Source: a virus. From it: DNA of 64,000 nt. The position numbers were made by a program, and so were the translations under genes. The notes below the pieces were generated by a model that was given only the letters and a program-made list of their open reading frames with translations, did not search any database and was not told where the DNA came from. Positions 32,507-54,436 of the stretch are shown one piece after another. Position 1 is the first letter of the stretch, and every line of letters starts with the position of its first letter. The stretch is from the IMG/VR virus record IMGVR_UViG_3300043424_000354, positions 1 through 64,000 of that record, one strand, 5' to 3'.

Positions 32507-33257
32507 CAAATTGCTCCACGTAATCCCATGTTCCTTCTGGGGTTGCATCATTAGGATCTGTTGTTACTTGGTATTTCTGTGAATAGTTTGGTTGTTCAAT
32601 ATCGGTGTAGGTCTGTGCAATAGCAGTTCTAATAATACCTTGTTGCTCAACTGGACCATACAGGTTTAGTCCAAGCGTAAAGTTGATAGTCCAAATAATT
32701 GATCGACGTTGTAGATAATCGCCTTCGTAATTATCTTCGTAATTGATCGAGTCAAGGACTATTTGTAAATCTCTCTTGATTCCCATTTCTGGAATATCAG
32801 TTATCGTTACGCAAAAATCAGGATTGAAGAATGGAATAATTTGTTCAATTATCTGTAGACCTTCATCTTGATTCTTTGACATAATAAACAACGACACGTT
32901 CATGTCATATGGTGTGCTGGTAAATTGTGTTCGCAGCATATTAGGATCATCGCCCTGCCCGACTGCAACATTCTTGGTTAGTAGGTTGATTTTTCTGGAA
33001 GGATTATACTGCAATCCTGTGATTTCAAACCCCATTCTCGGAAGAATGATTGCTGCTGATTGCGTAGTTGTGCTGGGCACCTCAGCAATACGAGCAAGAA
33101 ATTTATTCTTTGGGGAATATGCCAGAGGAACGCGTAGAGATTGCACTGTTTCATTCGCAGCATTAAATCTTTTGACAGTAATCTGATTGAAGATTGTGCC
33201 AAAAGCAATTATTGCTTTACGAATGTGTTGGTGATAGAAGTGTTGACGTAGAAACAT
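32487..33257 (-). CDS. 15: Tail sheath terminator gp15
   Basis: 256 residues (T4: 272). Closes the top of tube and sheath and joins the tail to the neck. It aligns with T4 gp15: FYHQHIRKAIIAFGTIFNQITVKR, VPLAYSPKNKFLARI, ILPRMGFEITGLQYNPSRK, IIEQIIPFFNPDFCVTI and KRDLQIVLDSI. It starts at the gp14 stop (TAATG). Confidence 0.94.
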   Translation of the reverse strand: MFLRQHFYHQHIRKAIIAFGTIFNQITVKRFNAANETVQSLRVPLAYSPKNKFLARIAEVPSTTTQSAAIILPRMGFEITGLQYNPSRKINLLTKNVAVGQGDDPNMLRTQFTSTPYDMNVSLFIMSKNQDEGLQIIEQIIPFFNPDFCVTITDIPEMGIKRDLQIVLDSINYEDNYEGDYLQRRSIIWTINFTLGLNLYGPVEQQGIIRTAIAQTYTDIEQPNYSQKYQVTTDPNDATPEGTWDYVEQFDEVYEQ

Positions 33258-34003
33258 TATGCTCTCTTTTGAACCTCACCGAATGGATTGAATGCTGTGA
33301 AATCTATAATACCGTCTGCTTCTAATTCGAATTCATCATTGTCTGCTTGTGGATCTGTATCTGCTGTAGCATATTGTTGTAGAACAATCGAATCGTCCGA
33401 TGTATTCAATACTAAATCACCAGATTCCATTAGCAACTGGAATCTGTAAAGATCTTGACTCGAGTTATCTGTAATAGCATCAATCTCATCAATACCAGTG
33501 TCAATTCTCTCGGAACTAAATTCAAAGACGTCGCACTGGAGTTTATAGGTGTAGATCTTACCGAGTTGGTAGAACGGATTTAAGAAGTCGACATACTTGA
33601 TTACGAAAAACGTTTTTGTTTTCGAGAAGTATAGTAAGTCGCCTTCTGCTGGTCTTCCAGGTAATTGAAGTGTTGCGTTTTGTGCAACTCCCTCTTCCCA
33701 GCGTCTCTTTGCAACTACGAAAGTTGCCGAAGATCTGAACTCGAAACCAAACTTAGTGAACAGTTCGCCTTCGCCTTCGAAACCTTGAACATTCTCAAGA
33801 TACATTTCGAGAGGATATGCCTGATCAAAATACTGAAGCGCATCCTCGCCGAGAATACCGTCGAGATTACCAGTTTGTCTTGGGAGATAGTAAACATCGT
33901 GCCCATAGATCTTCAAACTTTCAATAACAAGATCTTCCACCAAACGCTGTTCGCTGGTGGTTCCTGAAGTATTTCCTGATTGAAAGTAGAAGTTGGTAGG
34001 CAT
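33257..34003 (-). CDS. 14: Neck protein gp14
   Basis: 248 residues (T4: 256). Head completion and neck collar subunit. Characteristic blocks are EQRLVEDLVIESLKIYGHDVYYLPR, FGFEFRSSATFVVAKRRWEE, LQLPGRPAEGDLLYFSKT, FVIKYVDFLNPFYQLGKIYTYKLQ and the FNPFGE C-terminus. Lies between gp13 and gp15, as in T4. Confidence 0.95.
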   Translation of the reverse strand: MPTNFYFQSGNTSGTTSEQRLVEDLVIESLKIYGHDVYYLPRQTGNLDGILGEDALQYFDQAYPLEMYLENVQGFEGEGELFTKFGFEFRSSATFVVAKRRWEEGVAQNATLQLPGRPAEGDLLYFSKTKTFFVIKYVDFLNPFYQLGKIYTYKLQCDVFEFSSERIDTGIDEIDAITDNSSQDLYRFQLLMESGDLVLNTSDDSIVLQQYATADTDPQADNDEFELEADGIIDFTAFNPFGEVQKRA

Positions 34004-34006
34004 GTC

Positions 34007-34975
34007 TTATCCCACCATAAAATCGACAGGGAGTTCCGACTTTAGTTGCATTTCGGTTTCGATTGTAGTAATTTCTTCAACTGCCTCATCGTAAATTTCT
34101 TTACCATTAAGAATGACACCACCAGGAAGTTGGATTCCACCAAACTTCTTCATGTTCTCACCCCACTGACGTTTGATCAGTGCAGTTGCATAACGTTTCA
34201 AGAACATATCATCATACACCTGAGTATATGTTGCTGGATCCAGAATACGGTAGCATTCAATAATTACATAATCACCAGGATCGAAAACTTCTTCCCAGTT
34301 TACGTCGATAAACATCTTGTCCATTTTACGATTGTAGCGGATAGATCTATCTCCAACCAGTAGCATATCAAGCATTGATAAGTGCTGCTGAACTTGGGTG
34401 TAGTAGACCATGTCCGCAGACAGTAGGTTATACATATCGTTGAGGCGGAATTGGTAGATAATATCGAACATATTGTTGCGATTGTTCATACCAGAACTTG
34501 GACCATTTACTGGTAGAACACGAATTACACCAATTACCGAATCTGGGATAGGAATATATCCGTTTTGAATATCACCTGCAGTGTAAAAATCACTCGATGC
34601 CAATGCTCTACTAAATCCAGAAACTGAACCTGTTACAGTTTCACCAGCAACGAATGTTCCTTTAACGCTGGAAACTCTAGAATTTGTTCCGCTGAGCGAG
34701 AAAAGTTTACAAGTCGCGCCCGATGTTGCACCAGTTAAAATTTCATCAATCTCAAAAGATGGTGCAGACAGACCGGAAAATTTAAGTTCTGCGGTTGTAA
34801 CTTGGTGAGTGAGGTAAAGACGCTCAACCCCATCAAAATGATATTCTTGAAAATATTGCAAGGCATCGTCGATGCGGTCAGAAACCTGATCATCATCCAC
34901 GTTAATTTCAATTACTGGAAACCCTAGTCTGCGGAGACAGTAATCGATTAGTCCTTGTCTTGATGAAATTGCCAT
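34007..34975 (-). CDS. 13: Neck protein gp13
   Basis: 322 residues (T4: 309). Head-closure protein. It starts ISSRQGLIDYCLRRLGFPVIEINVDDDQ, followed by RIDDALQYFQEYHFDGVERLYL, LPVNGPSSGMNNRNNMFDIIYQFRLND and LIKRQWGENMKKFGGIQLPGG. A segment (about 70-130) rich in Gly/Ser/Thr is an insertion relative to T4. A strong SD (AGAGGA) and an exact late box precede it. Confidence 0.95.
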   Translation of the reverse strand: MAISSRQGLIDYCLRRLGFPVIEINVDDDQVSDRIDDALQYFQEYHFDGVERLYLTHQVTTAELKFSGLSAPSFEIDEILTGATSGATCKLFSLSGTNSRVSSVKGTFVAGETVTGSVSGFSRALASSDFYTAGDIQNGYIPIPDSVIGVIRVLPVNGPSSGMNNRNNMFDIIYQFRLNDMYNLLSADMVYYTQVQQHLSMLDMLLVGDRSIRYNRKMDKMFIDVNWEEVFDPGDYVIIECYRILDPATYTQVYDDMFLKRYATALIKRQWGENMKKFGGIQLPGGVILNGKEIYDEAVEEITTIETEMQLKSELPVDFMVG

Positions 34976-37501: not shown

Positions 37502-37750
37502 TTAATATGTTCCGCCATCAATAATACCAAGATTAATATCTTCGGCAGGTGCTGCTTCCCACTTTCTCGTCGCTGAATTAAATACCAGCGTATAACCATC
37601 TTGCACCGTTTCATCGTCAACTGCAACATTACTCAAATTCTCGAGTTTTGCTGAGGCATTCTTACTTAGAATATTTGTATTTATTCCGCTTTGTTGTGTA
37701 ACAGAAGTATTAACTGCTCTATTTAGAGGGACTGTGACTTTTATTGCCAT
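37502..37750 (-). CDS. Small structural protein with IDGGTY end
   Basis: 82 residues. Begins AIKVTVPLNRAVNTSVTQQSGIN and contains GYTLVFNSATRKWEAAPA, a segment common in phage fibre proteins. It ends IIDGGTY, nearly identical to the C-terminus of the fibre encoded just downstream (NIDGGTY), pointing to a shared binding tag. Function inferred from this. Confidence 0.65.
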   Translation of the reverse strand: MAIKVTVPLNRAVNTSVTQQSGINTNILSKNASAKLENLSNVAVDDETVQDGYTLVFNSATRKWEAAPAEDINLGIIDGGTY

Positions 37751-38079
37751 TATCGTGTTACCTCTGGATTGATTACAACAATACCTTCTAGTACTCTTAG
37801 AGTTTCTTCGTCGCTTTCGATTTCTATGTCGTAAACATACCTTCCTGCTTTTAATGCGCTTGTTTGTGTAGCAGTAAGAGAAATAGTAATCTCACCGTCA
37901 GTTGGCGATGATGCGCTTGCGGTAAAACTAGTTGCTGTTGAAGAGTAATAAGATTTTCTCAGTTGGGCAGTTACTGTATAATCTGTTAAATCTTTCACAT
38001 CACCGTTTTGGTCGCTTACCGTAATTGTCAAGGAGTATGTTGTTCCCTGATCAATATACAAATTTTGAATAGTCGCCAT
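37750..38079 (-). CDS. Beta-sandwich baseplate or fibre protein (BppU-like N-terminus)
   Basis: 109 residues. IQNLYIDQGTTYSLTITVSDQNGDVKDLTDYTVTAQLRKSY and the ending KAGRYVYDIEIESDEETLRVLEG look like the Ig-like N-terminal domain of BppU-type baseplate proteins. First gene of the minus-strand fibre run, with an exact late box in front and the plus-strand gene block on the other side. Confidence 0.7.
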   Translation of the reverse strand: MATIQNLYIDQGTTYSLTITVSDQNGDVKDLTDYTVTAQLRKSYYSSTATSFTASASSPTDGEITISLTATQTSALKAGRYVYDIEIESDEETLRVLEGIVVINPEVTR

Positions 38080-38106: not shown

Positions 38107-38114
38107 TATTTATA
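38107..38114 (-). promoter_or_regulatory. T4-type late promoter box TATAAATA (fibre run)
   Basis: Exact TATAAATA on the minus strand, 28 bases before ATG 38079; it faces away from the plus-strand box at 38090-38097, making a divergent late promoter pair whose transcripts overlap. Confidence 0.75.
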
Positions 38115-38128
38115 AAATTGAGAGTTGT

Positions 38129-38806
38129 ATGAGAACCATTGTGACGATTAAATATGGAACAAAATATTCCGCAGCAGACGTAAATAAAATCGTCGAAGAT
38201 ACTGGCAGGAAGTATACCTACGTTTGTTTCACTGACGATCCTACCGATTTAGATCCAATTGTCCTTGCTTGCCCTCTTCCCAGTGACATCGAAGGTCACT
38301 GGTATAAGGTTTGGTTGTTCAGTCAGAAAGGATTTGGCGATATTTTGTATCTTGATTTAGACGTCAGAATACAAAAAAATATCGATCATCTATGGAATTA
38401 CCTTGACGAACGCCCAACAATAGTTTATACTTACTGGAAAGATAGAGGTTTCCCTGATCATGAAGGTGATACTCACGACATGCGGTATTTGAGTAATTAC
38501 AACTCAAGTGTCATGTTGTGGAAAGAAGGGTCTGGTAAATATATTTGGGATCATTTTAATTCTGACCCTGATTACTTCATGCTGAAATACTTTGGCGACG
38601 ACAGGTTTCTTTGGCATGAAACTTTCGGGTTGAATTGGTTTCCGAAAGGCGAGTTTTATTCTTTTGTTTATGGCGCAGACTATTATGGAATTGATGATCA
38701 CAACGAATCTTTCTGTTATAGACCAGACTACGCCATCGCATTATTGAATGGATTAGATCAGTTCCCTGGGGCAGATAAAGAGTATGATGAACTTCGTATG
38801 CATTAA
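38129..38806 (+). CDS. Putative glycosyltransferase, copy 1 of 4
   Basis: 225 residues from ATG 38129, preceded by GAGAG (an upstream in-frame ATG overlaps the divergent gene). It shares the plan of the next three genes: an N-terminal strand with the KYGTKYSAADVN motif, YVCFTDDPTDL, an IPS-type segment and YLDLDVRIQKNI with a DxD-like acidic motif, then a second domain ending CYRPDYAIALLNGL. The layout is that of a GT-A-type glycosyltransferase; donor and target are unknown. It is in tight operon order with copies 2-4. Confidence 0.75.
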   Translation: MRTIVTIKYGTKYSAADVNKIVEDTGRKYTYVCFTDDPTDLDPIVLACPLPSDIEGHWYKVWLFSQKGFGDILYLDLDVRIQKNIDHLWNYLDERPTIVYTYWKDRGFPDHEGDTHDMRYLSNYNSSVMLWKEGSGKYIWDHFNSDPDYFMLKYFGDDRFLWHETFGLNWFPKGEFYSFVYGADYYGIDDHNESFCYRPDYAIALLNGLDQFPGADKEYDELRMH

Positions 38807-39542
38807 GTGGGGTGATAAGTATCCTGCTAAATATGTAAACAACCTATACAAGATGGTGCAGAAACACTACGCCAAACCATTTACATTCACATGTTATACT
38901 GATGATGTGGAAGGAATTGAATGTGATACTGCTCCGATTCCTAATGATGGTATTCTACATCCAAAATATTGGTTTGGTAAAGAAACATTTTGTTTTGATC
39001 GCGCCAAGTTCTTAGTTTTCAATTCACATAACTGGTTAGGATACGAGGGTAACTGGTGTTTCTTTGATCTTGACGTAGTAATCCAAGAAGATATAACTGA
39101 CATAGAGGAACTTGCGCAGAAACCTCGGATTATTCAGTGTCGCTGGCAACCAGAATCGCAGAAACATGATAGATTTTTTATAGAGATACGAGGAACATTT
39201 TATAATTCCAGCATGATGGTTTGGCCTGGTAAATCATGCGAACATATTTACAGAGACGTATTAAGTAATTCAGAATCCGTGTTCAAAACTTTCTTCAAGG
39301 GAAGTGACAACTATCATTACTGGAGGCAGCGAGATTTCTGGAAGGATATTCCAGGTGGTTGGGTTTATTCATGGAATCGCGGTAAGCACCACCCGAAAGA
39401 TGTAGAACGTTTTAAATTTCGCTCAGACGCTAAGATCTGTTTATTTAATACGGACAATGTTCCGCATCCATCTGCCAGAGAACAGGAAGAACTGTCTGAC
39501 TGCTTAGACGAAAACATTATTAGATTGTGGAATTGCGAATGA
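38784..39542 (+). CDS. Putative glycosyltransferase, copy 2 of 4
   Basis: 252 residues; its ATGATG lies 23 bases inside copy 1. It opens NFVCIKWGDKYPAKYVNNLYKM, then FTCYTDDVEGIE, PKYWFGKETFCFDRAKFLVF and FFDLDVVIQEDI (DxD-like). The central SSMMVWPGKSCEHIY and C-terminal KICLFNTDNVPHP blocks are shared with copy 3. GT-A fold is inferred from the pattern. Confidence 0.75.
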   Translation: MMNFVCIKWGDKYPAKYVNNLYKMVQKHYAKPFTFTCYTDDVEGIECDTAPIPNDGILHPKYWFGKETFCFDRAKFLVFNSHNWLGYEGNWCFFDLDVVIQEDITDIEELAQKPRIIQCRWQPESQKHDRFFIEIRGTFYNSSMMVWPGKSCEHIYRDVLSNSESVFKTFFKGSDNYHYWRQRDFWKDIPGGWVYSWNRGKHHPKDVERFKFRSDAKICLFNTDNVPHPSAREQEELSDCLDENIIRLWNCE

Positions 39543-40357
39543 GAGTTAATTACGTTTGTTGTAAATGGGGAACCAAATATTCAGCAGAGTTTGTCAATCG
39601 TCTCTACCGAATGGCAAAGAAGCACACACCAGATAGATTTGAGTTTCATTTCTATTGCTATACAGACAACAGTGAAGGTTTTGATCATGAAATTAAAGTC
39701 ATCGACTTCCCAGATATCCCAGACATCCACCCAAAATATTGGTTCGGAACAGAAGATTTCAAATATGGTATGGCACGTTGCTGGGATCGACCCAAGACAT
39801 TTATCTTTAACACCCACAACTTCGCCGAAGATAAACCAACTGGAAGATTTGTATTCTTCGATCTGGATGTGATTATCCAGAACGACTTGTCACCAATCAT
39901 CACATACGATTTTGAGAATCCTACTAAGTTACGTTCTTGGTGGCAGGATCCGCGACCAATGAAGACTCGTAACTTCAAGTTATCACATGGAGCATATACG
40001 AATGGTAGTTGCATGGTGTGGTCAGATGATCAGACAGAATGCATTTGGCAGGATGTTCTAGAACATCAAGAGCGTATTTGGTTTACATTCACCGATGGAA
40101 CTGACAACTATCACAGTTGGCGATGGGGTGATTTTAGTAATACGCCTCTTTGGAAGCATTTTCCAAACACCTTTGCCTACTCGTATAACAGAGGCAGAGA
40201 CTGGAAGTCTAGTGACTTAGAAGTAGGAATATATAGAAAGAACTGTATCCTCTGCGTTTTTAATGTGGACTTACTTCCATTTCAGGATAACAGTAGAGGT
40301 AAAGTGAAGCAAGAGTCGCTAGTCGACCCTGATCTTTTAGAACATTGGAATGTATGA
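39539..40357 (+). CDS. Putative glycosyltransferase, copy 3 of 4
   Basis: 272 residues from ATG 39539, ATGA overlap with copy 2. NYVCCKWGTKYSAEFVNRLYRM, FYCYTDNSEGF, PKYWFGTEDFKYGMARC and FFDLDVIIQNDL mirror copy 2; NGSCMVWSDDQTECIW and CILCVFNVDLLP follow. Copy 2 and copy 3 look closest to each other, copies 1 and 4 more distant. Confidence 0.75.
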   Translation: MRVNYVCCKWGTKYSAEFVNRLYRMAKKHTPDRFEFHFYCYTDNSEGFDHEIKVIDFPDIPDIHPKYWFGTEDFKYGMARCWDRPKTFIFNTHNFAEDKPTGRFVFFDLDVIIQNDLSPIITYDFENPTKLRSWWQDPRPMKTRNFKLSHGAYTNGSCMVWSDDQTECIWQDVLEHQERIWFTFTDGTDNYHSWRWGDFSNTPLWKHFPNTFAYSYNRGRDWKSSDLEVGIYRKNCILCVFNVDLLPFQDNSRGKVKQESLVDPDLLEHWNV

Positions 40358-41040
40358 TGATTAATATTTACACAGTGAAGTGGGGATTTAAGTATGGACC
40401 AGAGCACGTTAATCATATCTTTGAACAGTGCCGACAACATATTACGAGGGAATTTAAATTCTATTGCATTACAGAACATGCGGTAGACTTAAATCCAGAG
40501 ATTACTGTTATTCCGATTCCCGAGAATAATTACTACGAAAAATGGTGGAACAAACTGCATTTGTTTGATCGCAGAGTGATTAGGCAACAGGGAGAGAAAC
40601 TATTCTTAGATCTAGATATCGGCATTCAAAAAAATATTGATTGTATTGTTGATTATGATCCAGAAAATACATTAACGTTTGTTCGTACGCATTGGCACAA
40701 TATGATACAAATGAAAGAAGATACTAAAGAGATCCCACACAAATACACGGATTTAAATTCGAGCGTATTACGTTGGAACGATAGATTAGATACCAATAAA
40801 ATAACTAAATTCGTTCGAGATTATCCTGATCAAATGTTCTACTACTATAGAGGTCTTGATAATCTTTTCGGACATCAGAGAGATCGCCTACTCAATATTA
40901 AATTTTTCCCAGATGGTTGGGTATACAGTTACAACTACGGATATATGTGGCCGTCTGATGTGAGAGAGCGAGTCCATCGAGACGAACCACTTATTTGCTT
41001 ATATGATTCAATGGAAAGACCACAAGATGTTAAACTATAA
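40354..41040 (+). CDS. Putative glycosyltransferase, copy 4 of 4
   Basis: 228 residues, ATGA overlap with copy 3. INIYTVKWGFKYGPEHVNHIFEQ, FYCITEHAVDL, YEKWWNKLHLFDRRV and LFLDLDIGIQKNI keep the cassette plan with a DxD-like motif. Ends ERPQDVKL, overlapping the following methyltransferase-like gene by 14 bases. Confidence 0.75.
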   Translation: MMINIYTVKWGFKYGPEHVNHIFEQCRQHITREFKFYCITEHAVDLNPEITVIPIPENNYYEKWWNKLHLFDRRVIRQQGEKLFLDLDIGIQKNIDCIVDYDPENTLTFVRTHWHNMIQMKEDTKEIPHKYTDLNSSVLRWNDRLDTNKITKFVRDYPDQMFYYYRGLDNLFGHQRDRLLNIKFFPDGWVYSYNYGYMWPSDVRERVHRDEPLICLYDSMERPQDVKL

Positions 41041-41689
41041 TTACTTGAACAATTATCGAAATTGGGGTGATGGTCTGGAAAAGATCGCACACGAGATGCC
41101 GTGGAAGCACGAAGACTTTCGTAAGTCTCTAAATCCGAATACAATGGATGCTGCTATTTGGTTAGTAGAAGAACTACAGAAACACATAGATGTATCTAAG
41201 AAGTTGGATATCACAATTCTAAATTCTTGGTTAGGGTTTCCCCTTGTTCCGCTTCTATGTGAAAATCTAAACGTTAAAAAAATCAACTTGATTGACATCG
41301 ACAAAGATGCATTAGAACTGTCAAAGGTTTTTAACCGATATTATAATAATGAGCAGGGTGTTGAATTAAACCACATCAACTGGGATATCCCTTTCGCATA
41401 TCACGATATTAATGCGTTGGAAACTGATGTGGTAATTTCCCTTTGTTGCGAAACAATGTATCCTCTGAAGAAAATGACAACTGCGAATCCAGATTGCATC
41501 TTTGCCTGCCAGTCATCAAATGTATTCAAAGAAATGTATGGTATCAATTGTGTTCCGACAATTGAAGACCATATTGAGAATGTTGGTGTTGCCGCTGTTG
41601 GATATCATGGATCCATTCAGCAATCCTACTGGTCGTGGGATGGTAAGGTTGAGTTTGATCGCTTTATGGTAATCGGTAAGAAAACTTAA
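41027..41689 (+). CDS. Methyltransferase-like protein ending the plus-strand block
   Basis: 220 residues from ATG 41027. A Rossmann-type pattern ILNSWLGFPLVPLLCENLNVKKINLIDIDKDALELSKVF resembles a SAM-binding site with the Asp after the second strand, and LETDVVISLCCETMYPL follows. The glycine motif is degenerate (GFPL), so activity is uncertain. It ends in convergence with the oxygenase gene, sharing 4 bases. Confidence 0.6.
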   Translation: MLNYNYLNNYRNWGDGLEKIAHEMPWKHEDFRKSLNPNTMDAAIWLVEELQKHIDVSKKLDITILNSWLGFPLVPLLCENLNVKKINLIDIDKDALELSKVFNRYYNNEQGVELNHINWDIPFAYHDINALETDVVISLCCETMYPLKKMTTANPDCIFACQSSNVFKEMYGINCVPTIEDHIENVGVAAVGYHGSIQQSYWSWDGKVEFDRFMVIGKKT

Positions 41690-42363
41690 CCGAAGTGCGA
41701 GGCATCCTCGCCTGTAATATCTTCGATCATTGACCGCCAGATTTCAAGGTGCGGAACTACGTAACCAAGAGTCAGACGCTTTGCTGTATTTCCGCAACAG
41801 TGATAAACAATCTTGTCTTGTTCCTGCTTGTTACCGAAATACCCAACCTTACACGACCAACCTTTCGGATCGATCATCGTAACAACTTCCTTTGTTACTG
41901 GATCTAGGTATCTGAAAAATCCACCATTTTCTTCTGAGTTATATGTGATCAGAATATTATAACCAGCAGCATTCCAATTAGTATGCCACCCCATAAATCC
42001 ATCTTCGGGATAATATGTGAAGACTGCGTTATTTCTGGCGCCCAGATAACTGATCAATTCTCTATTAGTTTCTTGCTGTCTTCTACCATACTCTGATGGG
42101 AACCACGGTTGCCCATGCGCTTGCGACATATCTGTGCAAAAAGCAACCTCAGGGAATCCCACATGTCGTTCGCCTTTGTTTCTGATATGATTCATATACT
42201 GTTCGTCGGTTGCTGTGATGTGGGTTAATCCCCCTGCACGATCGCTTTGCATTTTTTCTGGTCCGAGAACAAGATGCTGATCGTTTTGTTCAAAAAACCA
42301 TTCAGTAAATGGATCCAGAATATCTTGTAATTCTTGTGAGACAGAACTTGTAAATTTCAGCAT
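41686..42363 (-). CDS. 2-oxoglutarate/Fe(II) oxygenase-like protein
   Basis: 225 residues. The double-stranded beta-helix pattern is YYPEDGFMGWHTNWNAAGYNILITYN, then GGFFRYLDP, VTMIDPKGWSCKVGYF and YHCCGNTAKRLTLGY. The first iron site is H-T-N rather than the classical H-x-D; the distal His and the RLTLGY arginine look preserved. Such oxygenases are widespread in aquatic T4-like phages; the substrate is unknown (protein or glycan hydroxylation possible). Convergent with the plus-strand block. Confidence 0.8.
   Translation of the reverse strand: MLKFTSSVSQELQDILDPFTEWFFEQNDQHLVLGPEKMQSDRAGGLTHITATDEQYMNHIRNKGERHVGFPEVAFCTDMSQAHGQPWFPSEYGRRQQETNRELISYLGARNNAVFTYYPEDGFMGWHTNWNAAGYNILITYNSEENGGFFRYLDPVTKEVVTMIDPKGWSCKVGYFGNKQEQDKIVYHCCGNTAKRLTLGYVVPHLEIWRSMIEDITGEDASHFG
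41697..41711. terminator. Small hairpin at the convergent junction
   Basis: GCGAGG CAT CCTCGC, a perfect 6-bp stem, just past the plus-strand stop and inside the last codons of the oxygenase gene. No T-run follows on either strand; a weak bidirectional terminator at most. Confidence 0.35.
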
Positions 42364-42936
42364 TCAATAATTCCTAAAATGATCAATAGTTATTTTGTTC
42401 CACACCAACTTGGCACTACATAAATCTTTACCAATGCGCAACATAGTTTCAGCAGTAGGATTAAATCCTCTCTTACTATACTTCACTAATCGTTGGTATG
42501 CCATAAATGGGTGAATATTGTTTTTTCTAAGTCGTAGAGTCTTACTATGTATATCATCCCAAAACTCCTCGGCATAATATATGTTCTTACCGTCAAATGA
42601 AATACAGCAAACAGTAAAGTCATAGTTATGTAATGTGCGAATTGGGTCTACGTATGGATAATCTGTTACTTGTATCTTTTTCCCAAACAAATTAAAGTCG
42701 TAAGAAAACTCGTTTTTATTTGTCTCGGGAGATATTAGTCTAAGATCTTGAATAAACTGTGTTGGATTATCGCTATAGAAATCATAATCGCTTATCGCAG
42801 TATTAGTAAGATGCGAAGTGATTGCGCCTCCTGCCAACCAATAGTTGTAGGATACCTTTCCTATTTTTTGTTTTAAGTTTTCAAATAAATCAAAAAATGG
42901 TTTGAATTTTTCTTGGTCTGCTGGTTTTACGATCAT
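42364..42936 (-). CDS. Nucleotidyltransferase-like protein
   Basis: 190 residues from ATG 42936, in a TGATG junction with the upstream stop. The segment YWLAGGAITSHLTNTAISDYDFYS shows the GG followed by D-x-D of Pol-beta-type nucleotidyltransferases. A conserved IQVTDYPYVDP then HNYDFTVCCISFDG and RLVKYSKRGF follow, as in tRNA-nucleotidyltransferase-like phage proteins. Substrate unknown. Confidence 0.72.
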   Translation of the reverse strand: MIVKPADQEKFKPFFDLFENLKQKIGKVSYNYWLAGGAITSHLTNTAISDYDFYSDNPTQFIQDLRLISPETNKNEFSYDFNLFGKKIQVTDYPYVDPIRTLHNYDFTVCCISFDGKNIYYAEEFWDDIHSKTLRLRKNNIHPFMAYQRLVKYSKRGFNPTAETMLRIGKDLCSAKLVWNKITIDHFRNY

Positions 42937-43631
42937 CAATCTAGTAGATTATGTGGGATAGTATAATGATAAATCACAATAGGTTGCCCCTGTAATTCTT
43001 CTTCTCTATACCCCACAACAAAGTTCCATCTTGCATCAGGATCTGGGAATCTACCTGTCTTTACGCCGAAATCATAAAGATTTAGGAGACGCCACATTGT
43101 GAATGTATCCCATTCAATTGCTGCAGCAGGATAGTGTTTTCGATCCCAATCAGGTTTGTTCTGCTCCCAATACTCACCATACCATGCACGCATGAGGTTT
43201 AGAGTCTGGGGATTGTTGCGGTAAATAAAGATACCACAGTGTTCAGTCATCTCTTCAGTTTCAGACAACTTAGTCAGTGCTGCATTATACGGACGATTGG
43301 CGGTGAAGAGAACATCTACATCATCTGGGATCTGATCAAAAATCTTTTGAATATCCTCGTGTTCGACTTCGGTGTCGCAGTCCATATAGACAGTCAGGTC
43401 ATACGGAGTTTGATCAAGCGCCCATAGTTTGGCACGCTTATCGCGAGGAACATTTTCAGTTACTACGTTGTCGAAAATCTCATAGTCGTCTGGTTGCACC
43501 CATTCTTCGTGTGTGAAGAATGTGATTTTTGCATCAGGAAAAAAATCTTTTAGGGAAATCGCCGAGTTTCTTGCTGCCCTATAGTATCCTTTACGCCTAG
43601 TGGCAACATACAGGAATCCATTATTCGGCAC
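42936..43631 (-). CDS. Glycosyltransferase-like protein (GT-A, DxD)
   Basis: 231 residues. GFLYVATRRKGYYRAARNSAISLKDFFPDAKITFFTHEEW at the N-terminus, RAKLWALDQTPYDLTVYMDCDTEV with the DxD, and CGIFIYRNN are typical of nucleotide-sugar transferases. It is not one of the four plus-strand copies; it is a different family on the other strand. Confidence 0.75.
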   Translation of the reverse strand: MPNNGFLYVATRRKGYYRAARNSAISLKDFFPDAKITFFTHEEWVQPDDYEIFDNVVTENVPRDKRAKLWALDQTPYDLTVYMDCDTEVEHEDIQKIFDQIPDDVDVLFTANRPYNAALTKLSETEEMTEHCGIFIYRNNPQTLNLMRAWYGEYWEQNKPDWDRKHYPAAAIEWDTFTMWRLLNLYDFGVKTGRFPDPDARWNFVVGYREEELQGQPIVIYHYTIPHNLLD

Positions 43632-44076
43632 TAACTGCTTCCTTGACGATTGCAGTATTCGCTTCTTCTTGCTGTAGAAGCATAACTGTATATGCAGTGA
43701 CTTCCATGATGTTCTTTGCCTTACGAATCTTTGACTTCAGTTCGCGATTCTTTGATGCTTTGACGCTATCGATTTCAAACGCATCCAGTTTGGCAGCGAA
43801 CAATTGCTCCTGCTGCATCCGTGTACGGTCAACCTTTTGCCGTTCAATATTGTGCTTGATTTGTTCATTGCGATCATCAAGACGTTTCTTCGTATTTGCA
43901 TCGATCTGTTCGATGCTATACTTCTTCAACAATTCCTCGAAGTCGCGATTAGTGCCATCGTTCATAATTGACGCTGTGACTCGTTTCCCAGTATCAGGGT
44001 AAACAAATTCTGCGATGACGTGCTGTTTTTCCTTATTTGCCCAATAAGGGTTTTCAATTGTGCGATTGGTAGTCAT
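43621..44076 (-). CDS. Hypothetical protein with coiled coil
   Basis: 151 residues. A short N-terminal beta part (VIAEFVYPDTGKRVTASI) and a long charged helix (TKKRLDDRNEQIKHNIERQKVD). It is followed directly by the GT-like gene (11-base overlap) and has an excellent early promoter, which makes the oxygenase-to-coiled-coil group an early operon. Family unknown. Confidence 0.6.
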   Translation of the reverse strand: MTTNRTIENPYWANKEKQHVIAEFVYPDTGKRVTASIMNDGTNRDFEELLKKYSIEQIDANTKKRLDDRNEQIKHNIERQKVDRTRMQQEQLFAAKLDAFEIDSVKASKNRELKSKIRKAKNIMEVTAYTVMLLQQEEANTAIVKEAVSAE

Positions 44077-44143: not shown

Positions 44144-45727
44144 TTATGCAGTGCGAACCCAAAGTTTTACGGTTGACACTGTCTCTTTAGTTTCAATTAC
44201 TGTTGCGCCTGAATATGTTCCGGAATAAGTTCCCGAGTAGTTGCCTACGTAGTTACCGGAGTAGTTTCTGGAACCTGCGAAGTAACCAGTATAAAATCCT
44301 GTAAAGAATCCTTGGTAATTTCCAGTATATGTTGCAGTTCCAACATAATTTCCGGTAAAGTTATTTGCATATGTTCCGGAATAAGTTCCCGCATAGTTGG
44401 CGGCATAGTTTCTAGAACCAGAGAAGTATCCAGTATATGTTCCTGAATATGTTCCTGCATAGTTAGCAGCATAGTTTCTAGATCCAGCAAAGTATCCAGT
44501 AAAATTACCCAGATAGGTTCCGCTGAACGTACCCGAGAAATAACTTATATAATTTCCCGCAAAAGCAGTACCAGCATAACCACCATAGAAAACAGAATAA
44601 TACCCAACATACCCAGTTGCATATCCTGCGCCAATGTAGTTACCGCTGAAATTGCTAGAATAAGTTCCTGCATAGTTACCAGCATAGTTCCTAGAACCTG
44701 CGTAATACCCTACGTAGTTGCCAGAGAAATTGCCAGCATAGTTGCCTGCGTAATTTCTAGAACCCGCGTATGATCCAGTATAATTTCCTGTGAAATTGCC
44801 TGTATACGTTCCTGAATAGTTTGCCGGACCTACATAACCGCCACTGAAGTTGTTGGCATAATTACCAGAATATGCGCCAGCATAATTACCAGAGTAATTT
44901 CTAGAACCAGCATAGGTTCCTGCGTAGTTACCTGCGTAGTTACCTGCGTAGTTTTGCGGAGTTACTTGTTCACGAGTATCTGCAAACTCATCACCCATTT
45001 GCACCCAAGTGCCGCCAGATGGAGCAGTGGATTGAATCTTATATGTCCCAACGCCGCTATCGATAATTCTATTGCGGAAGTTTGGTAGCATCTGAAGAAT
45101 CTCAGAAGATGACATTTCTTTGACATCTTTCGTATTGATCAGTTTCAGTGGTTTTAGATTGGCATCCGAAAGAGAAGTAGCAGCAGTTTTCTGCCAAAGA
45201 TATGTTGTGGTATTCCCACCATTAGCAACATCGGTTAGCGTGTAACGAGCAACCCACGTCCCGCCTGACGGAGCAGAACCTTGTAGGCGATATTGACCCG
45301 CAGTATACGAAGTCTCCGAAACCATCGCATTAATTGCATAGTCCAGAATTTCGGTATCGATTTGACCATCAGTCATTTCGCGGATACCCGAATCATATTT
45401 CAGCGGACGATTTGTAATACTTTCTGATGCTGCAGCAGAGACCTGCTTTGCGTAGTATGTAACTGTGTCTAATGCACCAGTAGCAGGGTGAGTGCCTGTT
45501 GCTTCTTGGCGATCAGTGTCAGCAAAAGTTCCGATTGCAGTTCCTGCGCCACTATTGTTTGTGGTGATATTTAGTTCGCCAGTGCCAGTACCGTCGGAGT
45601 TAGCACCGAAAGAAACTGTCAATGTTTGGGCGATGTAGTTCTTGACTTCATCAGTAGTCATCTCCTGCAAACCTTGCCAGTTTGCAGAAGAAACAGGTGT
45701 TGCCGAGGATTTGTTTCTCAATACCAT
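44144..45727 (-). CDS. xYxG-repeat structural protein A
   Basis: 527 residues. Residues 1 to about 258 form a soluble head with two SAPSGGTWV-type blocks and WQKT strands. From about 259 to 505 nearly all residues follow a tetrapeptide x-[Y/F]-[A/S/T/V]-[G/N], broken by SRNYxG units; 22-residue and 48-residue supra-units recur between SRN marks. The C-terminal 20 residues (ETKETVSTVKLWVRTA region) match the end of protein B. The composition suggests a rigid, repetitive fibre or adhesin; fold unknown. Late position in the fibre region suggests a virion protein. Confidence 0.8.
   Translation of the reverse strand: MVLRNKSSATPVSSANWQGLQEMTTDEVKNYIAQTLTVSFGANSDGTGTGELNITTNNSGAGTAIGTFADTDRQEATGTHPATGALDTVTYYAKQVSAAASESITNRPLKYDSGIREMTDGQIDTEILDYAINAMVSETSYTAGQYRLQGSAPSGGTWVARYTLTDVANGGNTTTYLWQKTAATSLSDANLKPLKLINTKDVKEMSSSEILQMLPNFRNRIIDSGVGTYKIQSTAPSGGTWVQMGDEFADTREQVTPQNYAGNYAGNYAGTYAGSRNYSGNYAGAYSGNYANNFSGGYVGPANYSGTYTGNFTGNYTGSYAGSRNYAGNYAGNFSGNYVGYYAGSRNYAGNYAGTYSSNFSGNYIGAGYATGYVGYYSVFYGGYAGTAFAGNYISYFSGTFSGTYLGNFTGYFAGSRNYAANYAGTYSGTYTGYFSGSRNYAANYAGTYSGTYANNFTGNYVGTATYTGNYQGFFTGFYTGYFAGSRNYSGNYVGNYSGTYSGTYSGATVIETKETVSTVKLWVRTA
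44206..44952 (-). repeat. 12-bp-period repeat array encoding xYxG tetrapeptides (protein A)
   Basis: Roughly 60 tetrapeptides in register. Wobble positions differ from copy to copy, so the repeats are maintained at the protein level rather than by recent duplication. Confidence 0.8.
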
Positions 45728-48433: not shown

Positions 48434-51400
48434 TTATACCTGCAACGCAATCGCTCTTAGTTCTCTTACACGAGGAACAACAGAACTGTTTGACGAAAGA
48501 GGAACAACCTTTACAGCGAACGTCTTATATCCAGTGAAGTTTGCGCTTCCGACAGCATACTCAAAAACGTCGCTTCCGTTTTTATTCGCAGCAGGAATTG
48601 TATATTCATATTCTACAAATCCTGACTTCGAAGCACTATCAAGTGGCGAATTGGTTAGTTCCAATTGAATCCAGTCAAGATCATCAAAGTTTGAGGCATC
48701 AGTTGCATTCTGGAATTTACCGTAAACTGCAACATCACATTCAGACGGAATCTTGTTGCTCAGATATACCTTCAAATCTTCTGCATCTTGACCATCATCA
48801 AGCACAACTCGGCGAGAGATATACTTCGAAGCAGCAGAACCATTGTTACCATCTTCATTCGTAGTAAGATTGTTTACATCATTCGCAACTGCGATAATTG
48901 AACACTTTCTAGTATCAATAACTGGCGAAACAGTAGATGTTTGCGTTACCATACCTGCTCTTACTGTTAGGGATTTATCTCCACCAAGATCTGCTTGCTC
49001 GTTCGAATAGGAATATACCTGTGCTTCGTACGTCAATTCATGTTCTTGACCAAAGTTGAAACCTTCATGGACCGTTCCACCAGCACCAGCACCTGTTGCA
49101 GTTGGTGCAACTGACCAAGAAACTGTCGCAGGAGTATGATCAATAAACCCGATATTGGTTTCTAGAACGTTCAATTGCTTATTCTCGACTTCAGTGATTT
49201 CAGCGTATGTAGTTCCATTACCGACGATGTCTGTAGCAGTAAATGAACCCTTAGTGATCAACAACTTACCGACATTATAGAGAGTATCGTATTGCTTTAC
49301 GAAACCTGTATTGAGAACAACGGTAACTACAGCGCTGGATCCACCGCCACTAGAGATAGTGAGAGTTGGGTTGCTTGTATATCCTGCTCCTGGATCTGTA
49401 ACGACTACATCAGTAACCAGACCGCTCGCGATTGTTACATTAACTGTAGCATTGGTTGTTGCTCCACCCCCCGAGAGGGTATGTGCAATAGTTCCGTCTG
49501 TATAACCACTTCCTGGGTTTGAGATCGTGAACGTGAAACCGTGAACCGTATCACCTGCCGCAAAATTACCATCGGAGAACGAATCAAATTTCAAATAATC
49601 AACGTTCATGTTGCGCATCACAACTGACCCAACAGTATTAATTTCGAAGTCGGCACGACGAAGAGTAAACTTAATATCTTCTTTCTGCCATGCAGTCCAC
49701 GATCTGTTGTTTGCAGAGGTGAATAGAACGCCGACATGCGGTTGTTCTGAAATTCTGTTCTGTGTTCCCAGTTGGTTTTCGCCAAGTTCCGAAACCCAGA
49801 TATTGTAATCTGGATTGTTACCAGCAGGAAGCAGAACAAAGCAATATTCAGTATTGTTTTGCAGATATACTGGTGAAGGGAAGGTGAAGGTTGTTGCTGT
49901 TGCAGCAGTTTCGCTTACCGACACAGCAGAAGGATTCAATGTAACTTCGCCGAACGGAATTACCTTGTTACCAGGATAACCATTTACAACTTCGCGAATC
50001 TGTAGAGTGATTGGCGCTGTCGATGACTTCGTTCTGAAATAGATGTCAAGATTTGTTACATAGCAACCAAAAGGCATACCTTCAACATAGAAAGTTTGAG
50101 CGATTGGATCTCTACCACGCGCAGGTTGCGCACACGGATTGATCGTGTTACACCCTGCAGGAATTGTTATTGGACTGCTGCTGCCGCCGAATGTGACATC
50201 AAAACCACCCAATTCTAAATCAATTGTTGTCGCTTCCCAACATGTTTCAACTGGTGCGCATGGATCTGGTGTTGGTGTATCCACAACCACGACTTCGCGT
50301 GGAGGATCTACTACAGGATCTTCTGTAATAACTGGGGGATCTTGAACGATTTGCGTTACATTAGTATTGTTGATTACAGTGGTGTTAGTTACTGTGTTGT
50401 CAATGTTAGTAACGTTGTTAACAGTTGTGAACGTATTGTTAACTGTTCTTTCGATTACACCAACTTGCCTATCAGCAATTCTATTTTCAGTTCGTTCAGT
50501 TTCGAATATCGATCTAGAATCTGATGTTGATGACAATTCGACATTAGCAACTCTGGTCGAAACAACGGTATCTTGAACGTTTTGCGAAAGACCGTTTGCT
50601 GACCAAGTCTTAGTCGAAGCAGTGGTAATAAACGCATCGCGATTGAATTGGTCGTCGCAGAGACGGAAATTCTTATCGCCTGTTCTGAACGTTGCTGCTG
50701 GAATTCTAAATTGACCGACGCAAACACCCTGTGCATTAGTGATCAGTGGATCTCCATAATCACCATCAGCATATGTTGAATATCTAGCAGGGTCGTTTGG
50801 TTTCTGGTCTGTCGCTGGGTCAAAGTCTAGTGGACGACAATGTTCAGCAACTGCAACACCATCAAAGAATGGATAAACTCTGGTATTTGGTTTTAGTCTC
50901 TGCGCAATAAACGTAACGATTACAGAGCGCATGAACGGAATGATCGAAGTATTCGTTACTCGAGCGCCAGTTCTTTGTGTTTGTGTTTCAGGCGTAACCG
51001 ATAGCGACACACCCTGACGAGTTTGTCTTTGTTGGATTGTTGTTGTAACAACTTGTGTTTGCTGCTGTAATAGCAGGTCGCCGCTAAGAGTAGTGTTACC
51101 TGCAACAGTTTCTGAAGACTGACCAACTGCAGTTCTTCCAGTTACGACATCCTGCCAGTCACCCCATTGAGTTCCCCATGCATCTGATAGATTTTCCCAA
51201 GCATCATAATTGCCGTCGAAGTTTACGCTAACATCTGGTAGTTGTGCGGTATCCGTCCAGTTATCGACTGGTGGATCTAGTTCCATATTTCCGATGTAAT
51301 TGAATAGTAACTCACCGACGCAATTTCTTGGTTTGGAGGCAAATGCGTTCTTAGTCATCTCTACGTTGGTGTACGGTAGAGTGATCAGATCACCTGTCTT

Positions 51401-54400
51401 ATAGACATTGGTTGAACTATCCGAATCGTAACCAATATCAATATTTTCTAGATAGAAGAATGGACGCATCTCTTTCTTTGCAGCATCAATTGAGATATGA
51501 TAAGCAGAATCAAAGACGTTACCAACGTTGTGACCTGTGAAGGCATCAACGAGAATACCATTCTTGAAGCGATCGAGACCAGAACTGTCAGGGATAGAAA
51601 GATCGCTTGCTGCCTTTTCAAGCAGGGATAGCGAAGTATAATACTCAAGGCGATTGATACGTTGTTCCAGAACGCCGATATCGCGCATTGTGTAACGGCG
51701 ATTGTCGATAGCGCGGAATGTTACGCCGTAATCTGGACGATTAACGGTCTTGGCAACATTCGGTGCAAGCGATGGATATGGAGGAATATTAATGATTGCC
51801 AGCGACATCGCATTTTCTGGTTCTGCTGGTGTCAATGGTGTCAGGGAAGGAGTCCCGTAGATAGAACTGAAGATACCTTCAGAGTCAATTATAAGTCTGT
51901 CGGTTCTTCCAAGATAATATTCCAGATCAGTAATAAACTGTTCAGTTGGAACGGGATTCGTAATACCGACGGATGGTGCTGTGATAGTTGTGCTCTCGGT
52001 TGGATTTGTTGTAGCACTACCAACAGTCGTAGAGTTTGCAGCGGAATCCGAGTAACGAACACGGAAGTCTAGAGTGTCGCGAAGATCAAACGACTCACCA
52101 GTGATAGGTGAAGTATAAACAGGAATATCCTGAGTTTTAATTGTTGCAGCAGTAGCACCAGTATCATCAATTGGATACGAGTCAACTGTAAAGAATGTTC
52201 CATCCGCAGAGGAACCATCGTGCGTGAAGTAGTCTAACTTGATTACAAGTTTCTTGTTTGTAAGAGAAGGACCAGACGCTTTCTTGACGATCTTGGCATT
52301 ACGATATTCGTTATCTCGTTGACCCTTATCAAGAGTAAACGAAGAGGCAACATCATTTGCTGCAGCAACTACTGCCGAATCGGAATCAGTATGCGCGCCA
52401 ATGAAGATATTCTTAATTTGATAAACGTCAGAAAGACCAAGCGAATATGTTCCACCACTTGTTGATGGGTGAGTGTTGGTATTAATGATCACATAACGAT
52501 CTTCACGAAGAACCTTTAGAACAGGTTGAGCATTCGCTGATTGGACGTTCACATATAGTTTAACTTGCTTTGGAGCAGAAGTTACGCCACCAGTAAGATC
52601 AATTGTGATTGACTGTGATGAGTTCTTTGTGAATGTAGCGCCAGTAAGATCAAGCACTGAACCAATCGGTCTCGAAACTGAGTTGATTGTCGCCGCTTCT
52701 TTCATCATCATGGTAAAATTATTTTTGATGATTGTTGCAGTAAACGAATCATAAGGGAATGTTTCGTCGCCGCTCAGAGTAATGGTCACTTGACCGTTTG
52801 CGTTAAGTTCCCCATCGAATTCTTTGGTGTAAATAAACGAGTTATCGTAAACAGAACTCGGAGCAATAGTCTTTGTTGCTCTTGCTGGAAGTCTATATAG
52901 AGATCTGTTGAAACTTGTTTCTTGGAGAACAGCATTACCGCCTGTCAAAACTACGTCAGCATGACCATCAGCAGTTGCATCGTTGTAGTAAATACCACGA
53001 ACGTCTTTGAAATCGCCGCTTGACATTTGAATGTCATAGAGATATAATCTATATTCTGCCGCAGCAGCACCCGCAGTCCCAGACTCATAAACAATTTGTC
53101 TTACGCGAGCAGTACCGACTTCGGATCCTGGAGCAGATGTTGCAGAGAACGTTGTTGCAGTTATTGCTCCTGCTGCTGTTCCACGGAGACTTACACGATC
53201 GCCACCATTAAGGTCCCAGAGACCACAGAATTCGTCAACTAGAATATAGTTACCATACGCAGTGCTGATCGAGGATTCCTGAACGGAAACTGTTGTCAGA
53301 CCCTTTGGAACTACAACATATTCTGTTTGGAAAGTTTCATGTTCGAACCCGCGAACATATGCCTTACCTGCCTCGAGACCAATAGCAAGAAGATCTGCGT
53401 CGCCGCCACGTTCTGGGTCGGTAGAATTTAATTCTTTAAGACCGTTGTTTCCGTCTACGTTCAAGTGCTCTTTGATCAGAACAGGGAATTGTCTGACTGC
53501 ATAGTTGCCGGATTCATCATATGTGCGCCTTGCCATGTTCTTGCCAAGTTCGCCGTAGATGTTTGCGGTATATGTTCTTTGAATTTCACCGTTAACAATA
53601 TCAACAAGTTGGTTGAATGTTGCTGGTAGAGTTTCCCCTGTGTCATACTTGACAAGAGTTGTTGTTACTTTGTATCTGTCTGCGCCAGGAGCAGCATAGT
53701 TAAACGATCCCTGTGCTGGATCAAGTAATGTCTGGTCGTCTTCAGAAGAAACAGTAGTTTCTGATAGTTGAAATCCAACCTTTACAGAAGGAAGGTTTGA
53801 ATACTTGGAGAGAATGATTGTTTGCGCTTCGTGGTTTACGAACTTACCATCAATGTAAACAATACCGTCGTCGACAGTAAGAGCAGAAGCAAGACCCCAG
53901 TAACTGTTTGTTGGTTCTGCCTGATCATACGCAGAATCTACTACGAAAGTGTCACCATTTCGTCCGGAGACTGTAGAAGTAACGGTGAGTGTTTCGCCAC
54001 CAGTAAAGTGGACCGCAGTAGTTTCACCATCCCCGCTGGTGTAGCGAAGATAAAGAGTCTTCATATCTGGCGATTCTGCAGCAGTTCCTGTAGCAGTATC
54101 TAAAATGACAGCAGTGATACCAGAAGTGCCACCAGTTACAGTGTCACCAACATAGTCTGCAAGAGTAGTATTACTTACTGCTGCAGATCCTGCATCAGTA
54201 TCAAGGATTTTAACAAACGCTCTGGCAGAGTCGAGTTTAAACTCACAACCCTGTACTACAGAACCGTTCTTGAAGATATGGTCGCCGAATTTACCGATCT
54301 GAGATTGCAACAGAGTCTGCAGTTGCGTAAGTTCGCGTGCCTGAACAGCATATCCAGGTTTAAACAGGACTCGGTTGAAATTCTTTGCATCATCAAAATC

Positions 54401-54436
54401 ATCATAATATGGTGATACATTTAAATTCAGTGCCAT
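48434..54436 (-). CDS. 2000-residue virion/baseplate protein (DUF4815-type N-terminus)
   Basis: Largest protein of the window. It begins LNVSPYYDDFDDAKNFNRVLFKPGYAVQARELTQLQTLLQ, the conserved opening of large structural proteins in aquatic T4-like phages. The middle (about 1340-1420) is an Asn/Val/Thr-rich, coiled-coil-like stretch (TVNNVTNIDNTVTNTTVINN) and a Pro-rich linker. Then RDPIAQTFYVEGMPFGCYVTNLDIYF opens a beta-sandwich block; a GSGYTxxP-type repeat follows near 1600-1660. It is probably a baseplate-attached fibre or wedge arm; the function is inferred from the family. Confidence 0.85.
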   Translation of the reverse strand: MALNLNVSPYYDDFDDAKNFNRVLFKPGYAVQARELTQLQTLLQSQIGKFGDHIFKNGSVVQGCEFKLDSARAFVKILDTDAGSAAVSNTTLADYVGDTVTGGTSGITAVILDTATGTAAESPDMKTLYLRYTSGDGETTAVHFTGGETLTVTSTVSGRNGDTFVVDSAYDQAEPTNSYWGLASALTVDDGIVYIDGKFVNHEAQTIILSKYSNLPSVKVGFQLSETTVSSEDDQTLLDPAQGSFNYAAPGADRYKVTTTLVKYDTGETLPATFNQLVDIVNGEIQRTYTANIYGELGKNMARRTYDESGNYAVRQFPVLIKEHLNVDGNNGLKELNSTDPERGGDADLLAIGLEAGKAYVRGFEHETFQTEYVVVPKGLTTVSVQESSISTAYGNYILVDEFCGLWDLNGGDRVSLRGTAAGAITATTFSATSAPGSEVGTARVRQIVYESGTAGAAAAEYRLYLYDIQMSSGDFKDVRGIYYNDATADGHADVVLTGGNAVLQETSFNRSLYRLPARATKTIAPSSVYDNSFIYTKEFDGELNANGQVTITLSGDETFPYDSFTATIIKNNFTMMMKEAATINSVSRPIGSVLDLTGATFTKNSSQSITIDLTGGVTSAPKQVKLYVNVQSANAQPVLKVLREDRYVIINTNTHPSTSGGTYSLGLSDVYQIKNIFIGAHTDSDSAVVAAANDVASSFTLDKGQRDNEYRNAKIVKKASGPSLTNKKLVIKLDYFTHDGSSADGTFFTVDSYPIDDTGATAATIKTQDIPVYTSPITGESFDLRDTLDFRVRYSDSAANSTTVGSATTNPTESTTITAPSVGITNPVPTEQFITDLEYYLGRTDRLIIDSEGIFSSIYGTPSLTPLTPAEPENAMSLAIINIPPYPSLAPNVAKTVNRPDYGVTFRAIDNRRYTMRDIGVLEQRINRLEYYTSLSLLEKAASDLSIPDSSGLDRFKNGILVDAFTGHNVGNVFDSAYHISIDAAKKEMRPFFYLENIDIGYDSDSSTNVYKTGDLITLPYTNVEMTKNAFASKPRNCVGELLFNYIGNMELDPPVDNWTDTAQLPDVSVNFDGNYDAWENLSDAWGTQWGDWQDVVTGRTAVGQSSETVAGNTTLSGDLLLQQQTQVVTTTIQQRQTRQGVSLSVTPETQTQRTGARVTNTSIIPFMRSVIVTFIAQRLKPNTRVYPFFDGVAVAEHCRPLDFDPATDQKPNDPARYSTYADGDYGDPLITNAQGVCVGQFRIPAATFRTGDKNFRLCDDQFNRDAFITTASTKTWSANGLSQNVQDTVVSTRVANVELSSTSDSRSIFETERTENRIADRQVGVIERTVNNTFTTVNNVTNIDNTVTNTTVINNTNVTQIVQDPPVITEDPVVDPPREVVVVDTPTPDPCAPVETCWEATTIDLELGGFDVTFGGSSSPITIPAGCNTINPCAQPARGRDPIAQTFYVEGMPFGCYVTNLDIYFRTKSSTAPITLQIREVVNGYPGNKVIPFGEVTLNPSAVSVSETAATATTFTFPSPVYLQNNTEYCFVLLPAGNNPDYNIWVSELGENQLGTQNRISEQPHVGVLFTSANNRSWTAWQKEDIKFTLRRADFEINTVGSVVMRNMNVDYLKFDSFSDGNFAAGDTVHGFTFTISNPGSGYTDGTIAHTLSGGGATTNATVNVTIASGLVTDVVVTDPGAGYTSNPTLTISSGGGSSAVVTVVLNTGFVKQYDTLYNVGKLLITKGSFTATDIVGNGTTYAEITEVENKQLNVLETNIGFIDHTPATVSWSVAPTATGAGAGGTVHEGFNFGQEHELTYEAQVYSYSNEQADLGGDKSLTVRAGMVTQTSTVSPVIDTRKCSIIAVANDVNNLTTNEDGNNGSAASKYISRRVVLDDGQDAEDLKVYLSNKIPSECDVAVYGKFQNATDASNFDDLDWIQLELTNSPLDSASKSGFVEYEYTIPAANKNGSDVFEYAVGSANFTGYKTFAVKVVPLSSNSSVVPRVRELRAIALQV

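Follow-up and report, generated by a model that had tools for sequence, protein, structure and literature searches.

What would a phage build with four related glycosyltransferase genes in a row, and on what would it put the product? The question is raised by a block at positions 38129-41689 of the stretch analysed here (the window), the first 64 kb of the 108,631-bp viral record IMGVR_UViG_3300043424_000354, in which four glycosyltransferase-like genes (GT1-GT4) are followed by a fifth gene (MT). By gene content the record is T4-like (major capsid protein, sheath, clamp loader, sliding clamp and baseplate wedge), and its capsid protein is closest, among isolates, to those of Methylophilales phage Melnitz (68.6%) and Pelagibacter phage HTVC008M (67%). 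The contigs with which we compared it are environmental sequences from IMG/VR, mostly fragments; a search of the isolate collection turned up no cultured phage that carries the complete quartet.

It is very probable that the block makes a glycan. In the model that we favour, it would be an oligosaccharide assembly line building one constant short glycan: GT1-GT4, derived from an ancient tandem duplication, would each transfer a single sugar from a nucleotide-sugar donor onto the growing chain, and MT would decorate the chain with a group from S-adenosylmethionine (SAM, AdoMet), a methyl or, less likely, an aminopropyl. The acceptor would most likely be a nearby tail fibre made of x-[YF]-x-G repeats, possibly prepared by two proteins encoded next to the block, an oxygenase (OG) and a further glycosyltransferase-like protein (GT5).

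The quartet and the fifth gene

The block comprises five genes:

38129..38806, plus strand: GT1, GT8-like glycosyltransferase, homologue of phage P1 PmgQ / P7 HdmD (phrog_1962)
38784..39542, plus strand: GT2, GT8-like glycosyltransferase, sister clade of GT3
39539..40357, plus strand: GT3, GT8-like, modelled as a retaining GT-A enzyme; the block's most constrained gene
40357..41040, plus strand: GT4, GT8-like glycosyltransferase
41003..41689, plus strand: MT, class I SAM-dependent-transferase-like (methyltransferase/spermidine-synthase superfamily)

Open reading frames (ORFs), overlaps, motifs and homology all bear out the four tandem related genes plus a fifth that a sequence-only reading of the window had described. 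GT1 starts at ATG 38129 (an alternative in-frame ATG at 38078 would overlap the divergent gene), GT1 and GT2 overlap by 23 bp, GT2 and GT3 are joined by ATGA and GT3 and GT4 by TGATG, while GT4 and MT overlap by 38 bp, or by 14 bp with the MT start at ATG 41027; at its other end, MT converges on a minus-strand gene, and the two stop codons overlap. All four GT genes carry a DxD and share the motifs K[YW]GxKY....VN, C[FYI]T[DE] and [YF][LF]DLD[VI]. Their homology is, as judged by pairwise blastp, far beyond chance (from E 1e-54 for GT2-GT3, 38% identity, down to 2e-9 for GT1-GT3, 25%), and a profile of the four matches exactly these four loci in the record. Among credible genes of the window, the run is indeed the only plus-strand block: the other long plus-strand ORFs inspected lie opposite annotated minus-strand genes, except 710-1474, whose opposing minus-strand gene would extend past the window end. 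Over the whole record the description fails, as another plus-strand run lies at about 69.2-74.4 kb.

The AlphaFold2 model of GT3 (pLDDT 85.6) matches structures of families GT6, GT8 and GT24 in Foldseek at E 7e-8 to 2e-6. Its VIA Z scores are 16.9 with GlyE, 16.8 with UGGT, 16.6 with LgtC, 16.2 with LARGE1, 15.8 with glycogenin and 15.1 with the Skp1 galactosyltransferase (6mw5), the alignments to GT8 and GT24 structures spanning 198-233 residues at 8-16% identity. The GT-A fold proposed for all four proteins is thus backed by structure search for GT3, which models as a retaining GT-A glycosyltransferase; GT1, GT2 and GT4 are placed in its family by profile and homology. In a 61-member family alignment, nearly all members of which are 17-41% identical to GT3, the only invariant positions are G11, D108 and D110, and the resulting profile reaches LgtC (E 4e-4), GlyE and Skp1 Gat1 by sequence. 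Although GT8-like, the family falls short of Pfam's GT8 cut-off: GT1 matches Glyco_transf_8 at E 0.018 (PF01501, 15 bits against a cut-off of 24.3), GT2-GT4 give no match, and 5 of the 61 members match PF01501 at E<=0.01. GT1 matches phrog_1962, a phage glycosyltransferase family (E 1.8e-13); GT2-GT4 do not at E<=0.1, though they are homologous to GT1. A sub-threshold Pfam match of GT3 to EhRGS-RhoGEF, seen in two members only, was taken as chance. The gene at 42936 (GT5), previously grouped with the quartet, is no fifth copy: it falls in a separate DxD family that is more distant.

The reading of the fifth gene as a methyltransferase fares well at the level of the superfamily: by profile, MT matches Rossmann enzymes that use SAM or decarboxylated SAM and is class I SAM-dependent-transferase-like, and methyl transfer is its likely activity. 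Members of its phage family have in common a loop reading G[GS]W[YF]G or NSWLG, an acidic residue that follows the second strand and, at the C-terminus, an RFMVIG-type motif; the family profile is closest to spermidine synthases (E 1e-6), with a putative methyltransferase at E 0.007; Pfam yields weak matches in a few members. MT relatives accompany GT1-type genes in Pelagibacter phage Mosig and in the marine phage contig L147. The latter comes from a record titled Muricauda MAG (metagenome-assembled genome) and bears T4-like fibre, baseplate and slot genes; it is a phage contig binned into a bacterial genome.

The affinity to spermidine synthases means that one step might use a small molecule, and MT relatives or paralogues also travel with radical-SAM genes, including in this record. 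One could therefore suppose that the block makes a small soluble glycoside, modifies RNA or has some other role involving neither a virion nor a host-surface glycan. We regard this as unlikely: a row of four diverged GT8-like enzymes is what one typically sees where chains are built, and AdoMet decarboxylase, needed for aminopropyl transfer, did not turn up in this record and is missing from most of the relatives checked, for which reason we rejected aminopropyl transfer by MT in concert with a phage decarboxylase. The MT paralogue of this record lies at 80228-90971 of the record together with a carbamoyltransferase and five radical-SAM/SPASM-type genes (one of which, L229:3468-4892, is assigned by similarity only), a stretch that we provisionally label a second glycan-like or peptide-modifying cassette.

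Constraint on the quartet and synteny of its slot

A tree of 88 proteins gives full support to the clades of GT1, GT3 and GT4, each of which spans distant contigs; GT2 forms a clade with support of 99/95, sister to GT3, with bacterial members on one side. Four separate clades across distant contigs imply that the duplications are old and that the four genes have been kept apart; by this phylogeny, GT1-GT4 are ancient phage paralogues. The "four diverged copies" of the sequence-only reading are accordingly paralogues under purifying selection, held as separate orthologous clades. Compared with its relatives, GT3 is 72-94% identical with dN/dS of 0.01-0.04 where computable, and its level of conservation is close to that of the major capsid protein: in nine quartet genomes the GT3 identities are 94, 94, 93, 92, 91, 81, 78, 77 and 72%, and those of the capsid protein in the same genomes 93, 90, 91, 88, 89, 87, 81, 84 and 85%. 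In more distant relatives, the neck proteins are 51-78%, OG 44-64% and VrlC 35-57% identical. Among 63 distinct sequences, 153 positions of GT3 are at least 98% invariant, compared with 36-62 positions in GT1, GT2 and GT4. Recent recombination is ruled out as the cause of the GT3 identity, because synonymous sites are near saturation in the compared relatives (pS mostly 0.65-0.85).

The operon sits in the same slot across hundreds of relatives. In the window, the slot and its surroundings contain the following features:

33257-34975: neck-type genes; fibre genes lie between these and VrlC
37750..38079, minus strand: ltfA, L-shaped-tail-fibre-assembly-like (phrog_3304, E 1.8e-24), the slot's other edge
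38107..38114, minus strand: late-promoter-like TATAAATA, in front of ltfA
41686..42363, minus strand: OG, prolyl-4-hydroxylase-like double-stranded beta-helix oxygenase, the slot anchor
42936..43631, minus strand: GT5, second, more distant DxD glycosyltransferase-like family, beside OG in nearly all slots
43621..44076, minus strand: p43, small protein conserved between the fibre and GT5
44144..45727, minus strand: fibre protein with about 50 x-[YF]-x-G repeats (the xYxG fibre), candidate acceptor
48434-54436: VrlC-like gene, on the side of the slot with the xYxG fibre

Both gene annotation and slot synteny agree with the tail-fibre neighbourhood noted earlier. On the IMG/VR contigs, the order runs VrlC, xYxG fibre, p43, GT5, OG, then on the opposite strand MT, GT4, GT3, GT2 and GT1, followed by ltfA, fibre and neck genes. 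The exact block of MT plus four GTs is found in 143 of 158 loci with a complete slot. This count is biased by the GT queries, and we therefore recounted on oxygenase-anchored loci, where the exact order is present in 37 of 42 (20 of 24 after dereplication). The exceptional slots have one, two or five GTs, or a mix that includes radical-SAM and AsnS-like genes; one is empty. Wherever the contig extends that far, the xYxG fibre adjoins nearly all oxygenase loci. A nucleotidyltransferase-like protein is encoded between GT5 and OG (42364-42939); it is found in few close relatives only and is absent from most other slots.

The model of OG (pLDDT 94.9) matches 4j25 in Foldseek (E 5e-5; VIA Z 10.2, 150 aligned), and its structural neighbours, at Z of about 10, are the P. 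putida prolyl-4-hydroxylase, PHD2 and the Dictyostelium PHD (6t8m, Z 10.1). Its signature, H127-x-N129...H188 with R196, is invariant in 47 of 47 aligned sequences and departs from the canonical iron triad, with HxN...H in place of HxD/E...H. If OG is an active enzyme, its metal site would be unusual; if it is inactive, it may be a binding protein.

Candidate acceptors of the proposed glycan

That the acceptor is the phage's own fibre or another virion protein is a proposition to which we give slightly less than even weight. It draws on the constancy of the neighbours (xYxG fibre, p43, GT5 and the prolyl-hydroxylase-like oxygenase) and on the constraint on GT3, which suggests an unchanging substrate and is easier to reconcile with a virion target than with a host antigen that evolves. 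GlyE, glycogenin and Skp1 Gat1 glycosylate proteins. The successive sugar transfer envisaged by the sequence-only reading is in keeping with four GT-A-family paralogues, which fit four successive transfers; the order of the steps we infer. The most detailed version, in which OG modifies residues of the fibre repeats, GT5 adds the first sugar and GT1-GT4 with MT extend and cap a constant oligosaccharide to yield an obligatorily glycosylated fibre, is improbable taken as a whole. In the literature, we found nothing direct on virion glycosylation tied to T4-like fibres, nor on phage hydroxylase-primed glycosylation.

Several observations weigh against a fibre acceptor. In phage C48C1, p43, GT5 and OG are followed directly by ltfA and the slot is empty with the same fibre type present, which implies that a fibre of this kind can do without the cassette. 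The block opposes the late strand; a promoter-motif comparison with relatives yielded no certain promoter for it and assigned it no late promoter. TATAAATA occurs 13 times in the window, always on the minus strand (2.6 copies are expected on both strands), and we read these copies as putative late promoters of structural genes; distant relatives retain the minus-strand late promoter only. The TATAAATT that lies ahead of GT1 on the plus strand is conserved chiefly among close relatives and could be no more than the ltfA leader read on the other strand, so we did not accept it as a sign of late timing of the block. Furthermore, N-x-S/T sequons in the fibre repeats are depleted (odds ratio 0.53, p 1.6e-7, 36 dereplicated fibres). 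N-glycosylation sequons were set aside as targets: the repeats often read N-[YF]-[ST]-G, yet N is followed by S/T less than expected. Finally, bacterial members of the GT family sit in surface-polysaccharide loci of capsule and O-antigen type, favouring host lipopolysaccharide (LPS) or capsule as the target.

These bacterial relatives are part of the case for host-surface modification, a possible if somewhat doubtful alternative in which the GTs would extend or alter host LPS or capsule during infection, blocking superinfection or the loss of progeny to debris. Host-LPS modification has been proposed for the GT8-type genes of the host recognition cluster (HRC) of pelagimyophages (PMC7029224), the same cluster as that considered here. 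LgtC is among the structural neighbours of GT3, and the gene neighbourhoods of the bacterial family members on some contigs point the same way (polysialyltransferase-, polysaccharide pyruvyl transferase- and Wzy-ligase-type genes on L154, capsule-synthesis and Kdo-transferase genes on L157 and a GT2 gene on L149). Sigma-70-like promoters ahead of GT1 in the L354/L348 contig group would be compatible with early expression. While the logic of serotype conversion predicts variable enzymes, GT3 shows near capsid-level conservation and the order of the operon is fixed; moreover, the block is without a flippase or membrane-anchor gene, and its neighbours are the fibre, p43, GT5 and the oxygenase.

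DNA, the third acceptor proposed at the outset, is disfavoured. Several T4-like phages glycosylate DNA, and the GT-A fold is compatible with base glycosylation as in T4 or the TET/TAGT phages, but the record has a separate gene pair, outside the window (at about 102.1-103.9 kb):

102134-103929 of the record: TET/JBP-type oxygenase (PF12851, E 1e-24), adjacent to a TET-associated glycosyltransferase (TAGT, PF20691, E 1e-10)

From these domain matches, the two are likely a DNA base hypermodification pair. No PF00303 hydroxymethylase/thymidylate synthase match was found in the record, which may be incomplete. Among 11 relatives, TAGT is present in 7 and Tet_JBP in 1, a patchy distribution of TAGT that is independent of the quartet, and the listed PDB neighbours of GT3 act on sugars, lipids or proteins. 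We consider DNA glycosylation by the block highly improbable. A role in defence or counter-defence was likewise rejected, as PADLOC gave no match for the block.

Two further genes had been linked with the block into a small glycan pathway:

at 5250: SDR
at 12016: FkbM protein

Pfam confirms both identities; their link to the block finds no support, since some 25-30 kb separate them from it and nothing else connects them. Elsewhere in the record, a tmRNA gene with tag AANDNVAFEMRLAA is predicted at 77178-77594, and a FecR-domain protein (PF04773) is encoded in 92588-98763, where its neighbours, judged by eye, look like CsgG, curlin-type repeats and a CHASE2-type cyclase; this region resembles the curli operon reported for marine pelagimyophages.

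Earlier work has treated the GT genes of such phages as variable modifiers of host LPS. A quartet that is fixed and has one member near capsid-level conservation would instead mean that widespread aquatic phages depend on one specific glycan, and the answer to whether it sits on fibre or LPS would change how the fibres of these phages are understood and studied.

Comparison with known systems

In its GT-A fold, DxD and Z of 15-17, GT3 is like the GT8 enzymes GlyE (S. pneumoniae), LgtC (LPS), glycogenin (Tyr glucosylation) and LARGE1 and the GT24 enzyme UGGT, although it is only 8-16% identical to them and no member in the window reaches Pfam's GT8 cut-off. GT1 is homologous to PmgQ of phage P1 and HdmD of P7 (28% identity, both phrog_1962); unlike the four-GT block, P1 PmgQ is a single gene beside a phosphatase gene, and it is non-essential in P1 (PMC10695390).

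The protist system of Skp1 prolyl hydroxylase and sequential glycosyltransferases offers fold neighbours on both sides, 6t8m for OG (Z 10.1) and 6mw5 for GT3 (Z 15.1). This is resemblance only, as OG has HxN rather than HxD and the x-[YF]-x-G repeats are not proline-based. In mycobacteriophages Che8 and Rita, as cited in PMC11256854, phage-encoded GTs modify virion proteins, there the major capsid proteins of siphophages.

Pelagibacter phage Mosig (MT647606.1, QOI69051-QOI69057) has a plus-strand cassette near VrlC with homologues of MT (29.6%) and of the GTs; that cassette is large, with aminotransferase, radical-SAM and carbamoyltransferase genes, and has one GT of the quartet's family, not four in a row. 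A parallel in position is the pelagimyophage HRC, described as a hypervariable island with LPS-type genes and GT8-type enzymes (PMC7029224). Our block lies inside the HRC as defined, between VrlC and the neck gene gp14 with fibre genes and GTs, and likewise in T4-like aquatic phages. While the published cluster is hypervariable, 20 of 24 dereplicated slots are identical in order here, and the slot holds a fixed, syntenic and highly constrained operon of four GTs and MT.

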